The position numbers and the translations under genes are program-made. Source: a virus. From it: a stretch of DNA of 64,000 nt. The notes beneath the pieces are model-generated. The model saw only the letters and a program-made list of their open reading frames with translations. It searched no databases and had not been told where the DNA came from. The stretch is from positions 1 through 64,000 of IMG/VR virus record IMGVR_UViG_3300025168_000080. One strand, 5' to 3'. Position 1 is the stretch's first letter, and each line of letters begins with the position of its first letter. Of this stretch, positions 17,113 to 56,597 are shown in pieces.

Positions 17113-18402
17113 TTATGTTGGAACGCAATTACCTTGACTTGCAACAACTCCATTTCCTCCATTAACTTGTATGAATGTTCTTTGAAAACCTGTAGTATAA
17201 AGATAATAAAAACCATCATTAAGAGTTACAGTACCTGCACTGTTTGAATATACAACATCTCCTGCAATTGGATAGGTTCCTGTTCCATTATGAAAATATA
17301 ATTGATCTGCTGCTGGTGTGCCAAATTGGTTACATATTACTGCTACTAAATTTGGATATAATACACTTGTTGAATAACTAATTAATCCACCACCACCACC
17401 ACCAGTACATGCTGCACTGCTTATTACTACTCCATTTCTAATACCTAATGCAGTACTATTGTTTACTATAATATATTGTAATGTATTAGTATCGTTTAGA
17501 TAAGTGCCACCATTTACATCGGTAAACACAAAATTTCCTATTTCAGGAATGATGTTAGTATCAACAGTATAAGGAATAGAAGTTCCAACTGCATTTCTTA
17601 CAAAGTAATAAGTTGCCGTGTTTGAAGCGCAAGTAATATTTGACTGTAATGTAGAACCTGAAAAAGAAGGTAATGCTGCTGGACAAGCTATTTGCCAATT
17701 AAACACTGTGCCACTCATAGGGGCAAAAAACTGAATATTAACAGTTGTAACAGCCGCTAAAGTTTTTGGAACTACCATTGTGAAAACAGGAGAACTTGTT
17801 GGTGTAGACGAATCAGTAGCAAAACCAACTTGATTGTTTACAACACTAAAGTCTCGTGATGTTCCTTGACTAACATAAGTATTAGAAGCAGCAGAAAAAA
17901 GATATTCTGGAACAGTTGTATAGCTACCAATTAACCCTGCATTTTGATTTCCTACATAAGTAGGAAGTCCAGTGTTTTGATTGTTTATACCTGCATAATC
18001 CACTTGTGTTCCTGCGGCATCAACTAAAGTAACACTGCTATGATTATATTTTGATGTAAGTCTATTATAGTTAACGCTGTTATAATTAACAATTATACCA
18101 TCAGGTACGGAAGATGTTAAATAACAATATATTACAGTAGCACCAGTGCTATTAGCTAAATTTACAGTAGCATCAAACCACCCATTAGCACTCACATTTG
18201 CAGAAACACCTGAACCACAATCTACAGCACAAGAACCACAAGGTTGAGCATTTAGTAAAACGCCATTAAGTTGTTGACGAACTGTTGATTCATTTGAATA
18301 AAATCCATCTGCGGCAAGTGTAGTTAGTGCAACATCTGTGTAAACAGCAGTTGCAAAGCTAAAACTTGTTCCGTCAAAATAATATATTCCTAATGTAGCC
18401 AT
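17113..18402 (-). CDS. tail-associated protein with repeated beta modules (paralogue of 36750-37952)
   Basis: A 429-residue protein built from modules. The N-terminal part contains a Cys-rich segment (CGSCAVDCGSG). A middle module has YYFVRNAVGT and IGNFVFTDVNGGTYLN. A six-Gly linker follows. The last module has HNGTGTYPIAGDVVYSNSAG and GFYYLYT, closing with NGVVASQGNC. The same modules, in the same order, occur in the protein at 36750-37952, and the last module also ends the 1617-residue protein. No known catalytic motif. It is likely an exposed virion protein; host-surface binding is an inference. Confidence 0.65.
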   Translation of the reverse strand: MATLGIYYFDGTSFSFATAVYTDVALTTLAADGFYSNESTVRQQLNGVLLNAQPCGSCAVDCGSGVSANVSANGWFDATVNLANSTGATVIYCYLTSSVPDGIIVNYNSVNYNRLTSKYNHSSVTLVDAAGTQVDYAGINNQNTGLPTYVGNQNAGLIGSYTTVPEYLFSAASNTYVSQGTSRDFSVVNNQVGFATDSSTPTSSPVFTMVVPKTLAAVTTVNIQFFAPMSGTVFNWQIACPAALPSFSGSTLQSNITCASNTATYYFVRNAVGTSIPYTVDTNIIPEIGNFVFTDVNGGTYLNDTNTLQYIIVNNSTALGIRNGVVISSAACTGGGGGGLISYSTSVLYPNLVAVICNQFGTPAADQLYFHNGTGTYPIAGDVVYSNSAGTVTLNDGFYYLYTTGFQRTFIQVNGGNGVVASQGNCVPT

Positions 18403-54748: not shown

Positions 54749-55120
54749 ATGAACACTAAAAACAGTACAATTATGAACAATTCAACAACAGAAGCAAAGC
54801 ATGTTTCTACACCATCGGACTACTCACAATGTAAGTCAGATGCAATTATTAAGTTTACTTATTTCGCTAACAACTTCCACCACAATTTCATTGAAGAGGT
54901 ATGGGGAACACACGCTTTAGGACAACACTTAAGAGATAAGTGGGATACGCTTGGACATCAATTGATGGCATTCAAAACGGCATCACAACACATCAAGGAT
55001 GGCAACTACTACGGACATGCTTTGAGTGGAACTACGAACTTCTACAAGTTCTATATGATGCTTGATAGCTACAACAAAGAGTTGCTTAACAATTACATTT
55101 CAAACAATTATAATCACTAA
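54749..55120 (+). CDS. unknown 123-residue protein, first early gene
   Basis: Not recognised. A polar, aromatic, His-rich protein (FTYFANNFHHNFIEEVWGTH, residues 36-55), otherwise helical. No signal or membrane segment. It is the first gene of the right-hand plus-strand operon, behind the 54688-54719 promoter. First early genes often take over host functions; no motif says how. Confidence 0.65.
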   Translation: MNTKNSTIMNNSTTEAKHVSTPSDYSQCKSDAIIKFTYFANNFHHNFIEEVWGTHALGQHLRDKWDTLGHQLMAFKTASQHIKDGNYYGHALSGTTNFYKFYMMLDSYNKELLNNYISNNYNH

Positions 55121-55139
55121 TATTAAAACACACACAATT

Positions 55140-55373
55140 ATGAGTAAATTAATCGTAGTAAACGGTAGTGAAGATGGGATACAAGGAGTATTCACAAACA
55201 AGAAGTTAGCATTTGAATGTGCAAGGAGTTATGCAGAATCTGGAGCAGAGAATTGTCTAAAGGGTATGACATATGCAAAGTTTTGCAAAGAGATGACTGC
55301 AAATATGTATTGTCAAGTTGGTGAGGGCTATGGGGTTGCATATTGTACATCTTACTTTAAAAACGAGTGGTAA
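55140..55373 (+). CDS. unknown 77-residue protein
   Basis: An unassigned Cys-containing protein (five Cys) of alpha/beta make-up (KLIVVNGSEDGIQGVFTNKK at residues 3-22). The start at 55140 is chosen because it follows the ACACAATTATG context shared by neighbouring starts; an upstream in-frame ATG at 55062 would overlap the previous gene. The hammerhead ribozyme begins 3 bases after its stop. Confidence 0.65.
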   Translation: MSKLIVVNGSEDGIQGVFTNKKLAFECARSYAESGAENCLKGMTYAKFCKEMTANMYCQVGEGYGVAYCTSYFKNEW

Positions 55374-55376
55374 GTT

Positions 55377-55425
55377 AGTTAACTGATGAGTCCATAAGGA
55401 CGAAATGCCGAGAGGCATCTTAACT
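55377..55425 (+). ncRNA. type I hammerhead ribozyme
   Basis: A complete self-cleaving RNA. CTGATGA core at 55383-55389, stem II GTCC/GGAC (55390-55393 with 55398-55401), GAAA at 55402-55405, and stem III TGCC/GGCA (55406-55409 with 55414-55417) with a GAGA tetraloop. Stem I is open-ended: AGTTAA (55377-55382) with TTAACT (55420-55425), so it is type I. U16.1-C17 at 55418-55419 gives predicted cleavage between 55419 and 55420. All canonical core bases are present. It lies between two early genes and would split the operon mRNA. Confidence 0.95.
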
Positions 55426-55442
55426 TAAAAAAATACACAATT

Positions 55443-56111
55443 ATGAACACAGTAAAACAAAAATCAACAGTAAAACACAAAACATTCTCTATTCTTGTAG
55501 ATAAGATGAACAAAAGATGGAAATCAGATGGACGTCCTCAAGATAACCACACACACTATGAACACAAAACCTTCACACGTCAAGACATACACAAGGCAAT
55601 ATGGGTTGCTCAAGGCAATGACATAGAGACTTACGTGGTTCGTCAAGGTAACTACGGTACGTCAATCAAGTCTTGGATAGATGACGAAGGACTACTTGAG
55701 CGTATCGGTAGAGGAGTCTATCATCTAAGCGACAATGGTTATAAGTTTGGTAATCGTTCATATGAAGAAGGGGTTAAACTCATCCGTAGTATCAATGAAG
55801 ATAAAATAGAGGAAAGACGTAAAGCAGTTGAAGAGCGAAACAATCTACCACACTTTAAACATGCAAAGGAATTCCAACACTTAGTTGGGTTGTCTATAGT
55901 TAAGGTTAGATACTGTACACCAGAAGAAAGAGATAGTTTAGGATGGTATAACCAACCAATTATATTACATATGTCGGATGGTTCTTTAATGTTTCCACAA
56001 ACAGATGATGAAGGGAATGATGGTGGTGCATTAGCGTTATTTAACGACAGAGGTAATTCAGATTGTGCTTACACCATTAGTGAATTAGATTATAAATATG
56101 GTGATGTATAA
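55443..56111 (+). CDS. unknown protein with winged-helix-like N-terminus, 222 residues
   Basis: The N-terminal half reads as a winged helix (IHKAIWVAQG then SWIDDEGLLERIGRGVYHLS, about residues 50-95). A helical linker follows, then a domain with LSIVKVRYCTPEERDSLGWY and PQTDDEGNDGGALALF, a recurring small phage domain of unknown function. It follows the hammerhead (downstream of the predicted cleavage site), starting with the ACACAATTATG context. Unassigned; DNA binding is inferred. Confidence 0.6.
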   Translation: MNTVKQKSTVKHKTFSILVDKMNKRWKSDGRPQDNHTHYEHKTFTRQDIHKAIWVAQGNDIETYVVRQGNYGTSIKSWIDDEGLLERIGRGVYHLSDNGYKFGNRSYEEGVKLIRSINEDKIEERRKAVEERNNLPHFKHAKEFQHLVGLSIVKVRYCTPEERDSLGWYNQPIILHMSDGSLMFPQTDDEGNDGGALALFNDRGNSDCAYTISELDYKYGDV

Positions 56112-56117
56112 TACAAC

Positions 56118-56159
56118 GGTATGCATGGTGCATTGGGGAGTTCGATTCTCCCCATACCA
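56118..56159 (+). ncRNA. tRNA-like T-arm/acceptor element
   Basis: GGGAG-TTCGATT-CTCCC (56136-56152) is a canonical TpsiC arm: 5-base stem and 7-base loop with TTCGA. GGTATG (56118-56123) pairs with CATACC (56153-56158) as a 6-base acceptor-like stem. Only 12 bases join the parts, so there is no D or anticodon arm and no encoded CCA. An alternative hairpin ATGCA-TGG-TGCAT also forms. It is not an intact tRNA gene. It could be a remnant or a site for tRNA-processing enzymes. Confidence 0.45.
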
Positions 56160-56192: not shown

Positions 56193-56597
56193 ATGAAAAA
56201 TTCAGTAGAGTCCTTTGATGACTTAAACTTCAACAAACACAAAGCGTGTAAAGGCGTTCAAGCGTTTCACGAGTTCCCTAACGGCAACACAATCTCAGTA
56301 GTAGGTGGTGAGGGCTTATATGGTGATGGTGTAGTCTCATTTGAGGTTATGACTAACATTGAATCAATGAACGGTGAATCTGGTGTCTTAGGATGGCAAT
56401 CACGAGTACAAGTAAGTGAGATTATGAATTCACTTCGTTATAGAGGAGGGCTAACACCCAAAGCTGCGTTTGATCTTTTAGAACAAGCGATTGACAATCT
56501 ACTAAGATTAGAACAATTAGGTGAGTCAAATGCACACTTCCAAAGTGCTAAATACACACACACACAAATCAAAAAAGCAATTAAAAACTTAAGATAA
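56193..56597 (+). CDS. unknown protein, 134 residues
   Basis: Not assigned. A strand-rich first part (FPNGNTISVVGGEGLYGDGV, then VSFEVMT) and a helical end (AFDLLEQAIDNLLRLEQLGE). The GGEGLYGDG..TFEV-type pattern recurs in small proteins of crAss-like and other phages. Start follows the ACGCAATTATG context at 56185-56195. Confidence 0.65.
   Translation: MKNSVESFDDLNFNKHKACKGVQAFHEFPNGNTISVVGGEGLYGDGVVSFEVMTNIESMNGESGVLGWQSRVQVSEIMNSLRYRGGLTPKAAFDLLEQAIDNLLRLEQLGESNAHFQSAKYTHTQIKKAIKNLR

Follow-up and report, generated by a model that had tools for sequence, protein, structure and literature searches.

A type I hammerhead ribozyme between replication-region genes of a Bacteroidota-type podovirus and its putative interchange with other RNA-processing signals

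Hammerhead ribozymes clustered around phage genes were described by Perreault et al. in 2011 (PMC3088659), who proposed, in the sections of that article drawn upon here, that they process operon transcripts to single-gene messengers. The same sections place a hammerhead (HHphage) of the haloviruses HF1 and HF2 at 13 nucleotides (nt) before the start codon of an early gene, and they report self-cleavage of hammerheads from Agrobacterium tumefaciens phages both in vitro and in Escherichia coli. What phage hammerheads do has been unsettled for more than ten years and was still described as open in 2017 (PMC6155905), and a link of the Pistol ribozyme to phages is already known (PMC4604425).

The DNA analysed here, which we refer to as the window, is a stretch of 64,000 nt from the IMG/VR virus record IMGVR_UViG_3300025168_000080, the full length of which is 64,614 bases. 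Between two of its protein genes, at positions 55377-55425 of the plus strand, it carries a type I hammerhead with an open stem I. We consider it probable, at roughly 0.74, that this element is a functional ribozyme, encoded in sense orientation within a replication-region operon of a Bacteroidota-type podovirus, that it cuts the polycistronic RNA, and that it represents one of several interchangeable signals at gene boundaries. As far as the sections of the 2011 article extend, the element shares with the cases described there its type, its sense orientation and its location between phage genes, sometimes in clusters, and it differs in belonging to another phage lineage, a Bacteroidota-type podovirus with GroEL. 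An initial annotation, made from the letters alone, had presented the placement as noteworthy; the placement is real, whereas both it and the idea of operon processing have precedents in those sections (PMC3088659). Nothing was found in the same sections on homologous-site evidence, on gene swapping linked to the ribozyme or on its exchange for tRNA-like elements.

The element has the complete core and the three stems that the initial annotation attributed to it. The 5' strand of stem I, AGUUAA (55377-55382), pairs with UUAACU (55420-55425) and is followed by the catalytic core CUGAUGA (55383-55389), which conforms to C3UGANGA, by stem-loop II, GUCC-AUAA-GGAC (55390-55401), which is seen in the sequence and in the predicted fold and contains G10.1-C11.1, by the second core segment GAA, corresponding to G12, A13 and A14 (55402-55404), and by stem-loop III, AUGCC-GAGA-GGCAU (55405-55418), which includes the A15.1-U16.1 pair formed by A55405 and U55418. 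Stems II and III are closed by loops and stem I is open. Position H17 is C55419 and the hammerhead consensus predicts cleavage immediately after it, at 55419/55420, in agreement with the earlier assignment. The upstream gene, encoding 77 amino acids (aa), ends with the stop codon TAA at 55371-55373, 3 nt before the ribozyme as had been noted, and the next ATG, at 55443, lies 17 nt, rather than the 18 nt given earlier, beyond the ribozyme end at 55425. Cleavage would leave the downstream messenger with a leader of 23 nt (55420-55442) that is predicted to be nearly unstructured.

Several lines of evidence indicate that the motif did not arise by chance. An independent covariance model, trained on 39 other phage type I hammerheads with the window copy and its close relatives excluded, yielded the window copy as its only match in the window (56.4 bits, E 8.6e-13), and when stems of 4 bp or longer were required, the real window contained one complete hammerhead and 60 shuffled versions contained none. 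Moreover, the 77-aa gene (55140-55373, plus strand, an open reading frame, ORF, from ATG) has two further relatives, in the loci L110 and L136, which are about 90% identical at the protein level, and both have a ribozyme at the same spot. The L136 ribozyme is identical to that of the window, while the L110 copy differs from it in stem III by two compensatory pairs.

Processing of the operon mRNA, as first suggested in the initial annotation, is the reading best supported by this comparative evidence, and it is favoured because of the fixed place between stop and start codons, the sense orientation, the compensatory changes and the replacement by other RNA-processing elements described below. 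Once the polymerase has moved past the element and the last ribosome has left the 77-aa gene, the ribozyme would fold and cut after C55419 in the polycistronic RNA. This would give an upstream mRNA terminated by the stable stem-loop III, bearing a 2',3'-cyclic phosphate, and a downstream mRNA beginning with a 5'-OH and the 23-nt open leader directly before the gene for a 222-aa protein (55443-56111, plus strand, ORF). The usual decay routes would act poorly on a 3' end of the hairpin/cyclic-phosphate kind and on a 5'-OH end, and the cut may influence the translation or stability of each piece. The 222-aa gene has a tRNA-like minihelix at its other boundary, an expected target of host RNase P.

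The genes on either side of the ribozyme appear to be exchanged as cassettes. The locus L110 carries a 77-aa gene of the window type where L105 carries a SprT-like gene (a Pfam match below the cut-off), and the two loci are otherwise similar across this region, with identities of 82% in the leader before the gene, 98% in the ribozyme and 97% in the gene after it. The window and L136 share the 77-aa gene and the ribozyme, and their homology stops right after stem I, the next gene in L136 being unrelated; several more type I hammerheads occur between the following genes of L136. Among pairs of loci sharing a single neighbour gene, 100 shared only the upstream and 29 only the downstream gene, counts that come from pairs which are not independent. 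Because the neighbours differ around the site in L110, L105, L136 and a further locus, L137, the ribozyme lies at the joints of exchangeable gene cassettes, which is newly reported here. Seven relatives recruited by their single-stranded DNA (ssDNA)-annealing protein, together with L137, showed no hammerhead, and the presence of the element is therefore patchy.

These same observations would suit an explanation at the DNA level, in which the ribozyme sequence serves mainly as a homology patch for swapping early genes and its cleavage is incidental: L110 and L105 match in leader, ribozyme and next gene and differ in the gene between, the homology of the window and L136 ends at stem I, and sharing of upstream genes predominates. 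We regard this as unlikely. The stems vary with compensation while the core stays constant, and this counts against it because a recombination patch would conserve sequence and not fold. In addition, the elements are intergenic and in sense orientation, and a given boundary may be occupied by hammerheads that differ in sequence or by a tRNA-like element that shares no sequence with them.

The exchange of one element type for another was seen after a gene of about 290 aa, behind which several related phages have a type III hammerhead; 80 loci with this gene were recruited by protein only. A canonical type III hammerhead was present 16-61 nt after the stop codon in 51 of the 79 loci with a readable stop, and seven further loci had a variant whose stem II begins with a U-U pair, a mismatch that can support hammerhead activity according to the consulted sections of Perreault et al. 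2011 (PMC3088659). After other genes of the same loci, over the same range of distances, a hammerhead was found in 80 of 1141 controls. When the 79 loci were clustered at 85% protein identity, the resulting 58 clusters comprised 35 with canonical hammerheads, five with the U-U variant, seven with tRNA-like elements and 11 others, several of which resemble further hammerhead variants by eye. The eight loci of the tRNA-like group (seven clusters) lack a hammerhead and exhibit instead, after the stop codon, a T-arm motif, mostly with an acceptor-like stem.

A search for structures that combine an acceptor with a T-arm detected 12 such elements in the loci of the 290-aa gene, one of which (L212) overlaps an Rfam tRNA, and none after shuffling; a narrower search gave ten on the sense strand and none on the antisense strand. 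The elements usually start 1-21 nt after the stop codon and are followed by a leader of 19-42 nt to an ATG, as is the case with the hammerheads, and a GUGUCUU-AAGACAC hairpin often precedes them as it does many of the type III hammerheads. The 3' boundary of one gene is occupied by a type III hammerhead in most related phages and by a tRNA-like minihelix in others, which is also new here. In the loci L144-L217, the interval between the stop codon and the type III hammerhead contains the conserved hairpin GTGTCTTNAAAGACAC, which also occurs before some of the tRNA-like elements and would leave a hairpin at the 3' end of the cleaved upstream mRNA. In L193 a twister-P3 ribozyme (2886-2963, 61.8 bits) is located just upstream of the 290-aa gene.

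In the window, a tRNA-like minihelix is found at 56118-56158 on the plus strand, 6 nt after the stop codon of the 222-aa gene, where it constitutes a predicted RNase P-type processing site. It consists of an acceptor stem GGUAUG/CAUACC, an AUGGU linker and a T-arm GGGAG-UUCGAUU-CUCCC, consistent with the pattern of a 6-7 bp acceptor stacked on a T-arm with a UUCRANY loop, and an anticodon arm is absent. In L060 and L110 four of the six acceptor pairs are altered on both sides and still pair, and the linker and T-arm are nearly unchanged. This pairing was assigned with a per-sequence finder because MAFFT misplaces the acceptor when the length of the linker is variable. The acceptor and T-arm with a UUCRANY loop, and the missing anticodon arm, are shared with mascRNA/menRNA (RF01684) and with the tRNA-like domain of tmRNA; the window element differs from these in lying in phage DNA between protein genes, and in Rfam similarity that is only sub-threshold, the nearest families being mascRNA (27.1 bits, for L169, against 42.5) and tmRNA (10.6 bits, for the window, against 47). 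mascRNA is released by RNase P, and we infer that the minihelix at 56118-56158 would be cut by the host enzyme. The 222-aa gene would then be bracketed by two different cutting signals, a hammerhead and a tRNA-like minihelix, an arrangement newly described here. In a wider pattern search of IMG/VR (loci L232-L351) the full minihelix fold was present in 42 of 120 loci as compared with 0.75% with shuffled flanks, and the loci lie mostly just before an ATG. To judge from these matches, tRNA-like minihelices are widespread in viral contigs, chance matches to the pattern in IMG/VR being probably numerous.

Taken further, these results raise the possibility of a toolkit of exchangeable cis elements, including type I and type III hammerheads, Pistol, twister and RNase P-recruiting minihelices, that cuts messengers at gene boundaries within swappable cassettes, with the window gene bracketed by two of the kinds; this wider proposal remains tentative and we would rate it at somewhat below even odds. 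If it is true that different RNA structures replace each other at one boundary, the conserved function would be the making of RNA ends at that place and would not belong to a particular ribozyme. Neither exchange of hammerheads with tRNA-like elements nor a single gene flanked by two different kinds of signal was found in the open-access literature.

The placement of phage hammerheads in general was examined in viral contigs of IMG/VR, where a scan with the core and one stem II sequence gave at least 120 loci. Such a consensus-pattern scan selects for hammerheads, and statements on prevalence are consequently drawn only from the loci recruited by protein. Among the matches listed, stems I and III were also present at 105 of 115 distinct sites, in comparison with 1.3% with shuffled flanks, and several loci had three to nine hammerheads in a row. 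From the same matches, 79 distinct type I cases followed a gene 60 codons or more in length. The stop codon of that gene was located between -13 and +4 nt from the core in 66 of these, frequently within stem I or the core itself, with a UAA adjoining the core in 17/79 and a UGA within the core in 15/79; the median leader from the cut to the next ATG was 25 nt. Stop and start were both placed in this manner in 52 of 119 cases as against 2.6% at random, under a null that pools type I and type III positions. Exact overlap with the stop is in part expected since the motif itself holds UAA and UGA, which does not explain the closeness of the stop codon.

Such overlap could also point to a ribosome-gated switch, in which termination on the upstream gene blocks folding so that only poorly translated messengers are cut and expression is thereby controlled, given that a ribosome terminating at a stop within stem I or the core would sit over the 5' half of the ribozyme. 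Yet the overlap may merely reflect compact genomes and the stop codons of the motif, and the stop codon in the window lies 3 nt outside the ribozyme; we consider gating to be slightly less probable again than the recombination patch.

Hammerheads also occur in cultured relatives. In the Elemovirus phages of Flavobacterium, a type I hammerhead is encoded on the minus strand (NC_055854.1, 16302-16363) and its site is present in all 68 of the 68 records found. Over a 381-bp stretch compared between nine sampled isolates, four of the variable positions make up the two pairs of stem II, which reads GACU/AGUC in 6-9C and GGUU/AACC in five of the isolates. This compensatory double change argues that the fold is under selection. 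Most records have a short antisense ORF annotated across this hammerhead. The same phages carry a type III hammerhead on the minus strand (NC_055854.1, approximately 18098-18152) at the start of a leftward gene block, in a stretch that shows 99% identity or more throughout the 68 records.

The hammerhead of the Cellulophaga phage phi19:3 has the same layout as that of the window and is 85% identical to it over 55 nt. The same gene block contains, at the gp046-gp045 junction, an unannotated Pistol ribozyme that scores above the Rfam threshold (NC_021789.1, 20369-20436, minus strand; L122:4380-4447). Pistol (RF02679) in phi19:3 and twister-P3 (RF03154) in L193 are likewise self-cleaving RNAs at gene boundaries of related phages, and they differ from the window hammerhead in having unrelated folds. 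Among the annotated products of phi19:3 is, in addition, an RNA ligase family protein (gp003). A published study of ribozymes in Flavobacterium or Cellulophaga phages was not found in the open-access literature. Natural compensated and uncompensated alleles of stem II in cultured Flavobacterium phages, reported here for the first time, make the function testable, the available systems being Elemovirus on Flavobacterium sp. BAL314, with the natural alleles, and phi19:3 on Cellulophaga baltica.

A number of observations weigh against a functional, messenger-cutting hammerhead. In the minimum-energy fold of the window copy stems II and III form and stem I closes in a shifted register, predicted to be 2.3 kcal/mol more stable than the canonical one, and no tertiary contact or pseudoknot between stem I and loop II was evident on inspection of this copy. 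In L137 a homologue of the 222-aa gene (77% identical) directly follows another gene, the 77-aa gene and the ribozyme both being absent; the ribozyme is therefore not essential for that gene. In the Elemovirus isolates 13-5B, 10-3D and 6-3D, stem II has the uncompensated hybrid form GACU/AACC, such that loss of the fold may be tolerated; the hybrid also supplies a natural mutant. Finally, the window copy falls below Rfam gathering (RF00008, 23.9 bits against a cut-off of 48.5). The Rfam search recommended in the initial annotation thus counted against the window copy and in favour of its homologues in L110, L105 and L060, which pass the type I threshold of RF00163 (35.9 against 34 bits). Relative to RF00163 (Hammerhead_1), the core and topology are the same and the window copy itself fails, its loop II being of 4 nt and its 6-bp stem I rich in A+U. 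Rfam alone is a poor judge in this case: the window copy escapes it, as do most of the other phage hammerheads that are obvious, and only three, that of L110 included, passed the cut-offs across eight loci rich in them. The gathering cut-off is a curation threshold and not a biochemical feature.

The low Rfam score and the alternative register of stem I could be taken as signs of an inactive relic or a chance resemblance. This we hold to be more doubtful than either gating or the recombination patch, given the absence of any complete hammerhead from the 60 shuffled windows and the presence at the same site of an identical copy in L136 and of a compensated copy in L110, the sequence of which disrupts the shifted register and retains the canonical stem I. 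A part in a circular RNA or retrozyme-like element, a purpose served by hammerheads of eukaryotic repeats and viroids in the portion of PMC4918200 considered, is very improbable and was dropped, the window having a single hammerhead with no tandem copy to release a circle.

The wider gene context is viral. The record encodes terminase, portal, GroEL, ssDNA-annealing protein, an exonuclease VIII-like protein and a helicase, and its terminase shows 71% identity to that of an uncultured Manatee Spring podovirus and 44% to those of the cultured Flavobacterium Elemovirus phages. The description of the locus in the initial annotation as a phage early operon holds with respect to the phage, on the basis of terminase, portal and GroEL; the term early derives from the replication and recombination genes that lie downstream, and scans for Bacteroidota-type promoters and terminators around the ribozyme revealed nothing exceeding chance. 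Upstream of the hammerhead-bearing cassette lies a gene for 123 aa (54749-55120, plus strand, ORF), to the end of which the gene preceding the 222-aa homologue in L137 is similar at its own end, and a gene for 134 aa (56193-56597, plus strand, ORF) follows the tRNA-like element.

Clusters of five to nine hammerheads within one gene block were observed in L106, L117, L093 and L082. Hammerheads also occur inside phage tRNA arrays (L032:579-627, L090:2177-2225, L108:5351-5399 and L021:5277-5325), where they have the common sequence CTGTCTCTGATGAGTCC, and in two of these four cases the hammerhead is positioned a few nt after a tRNA.
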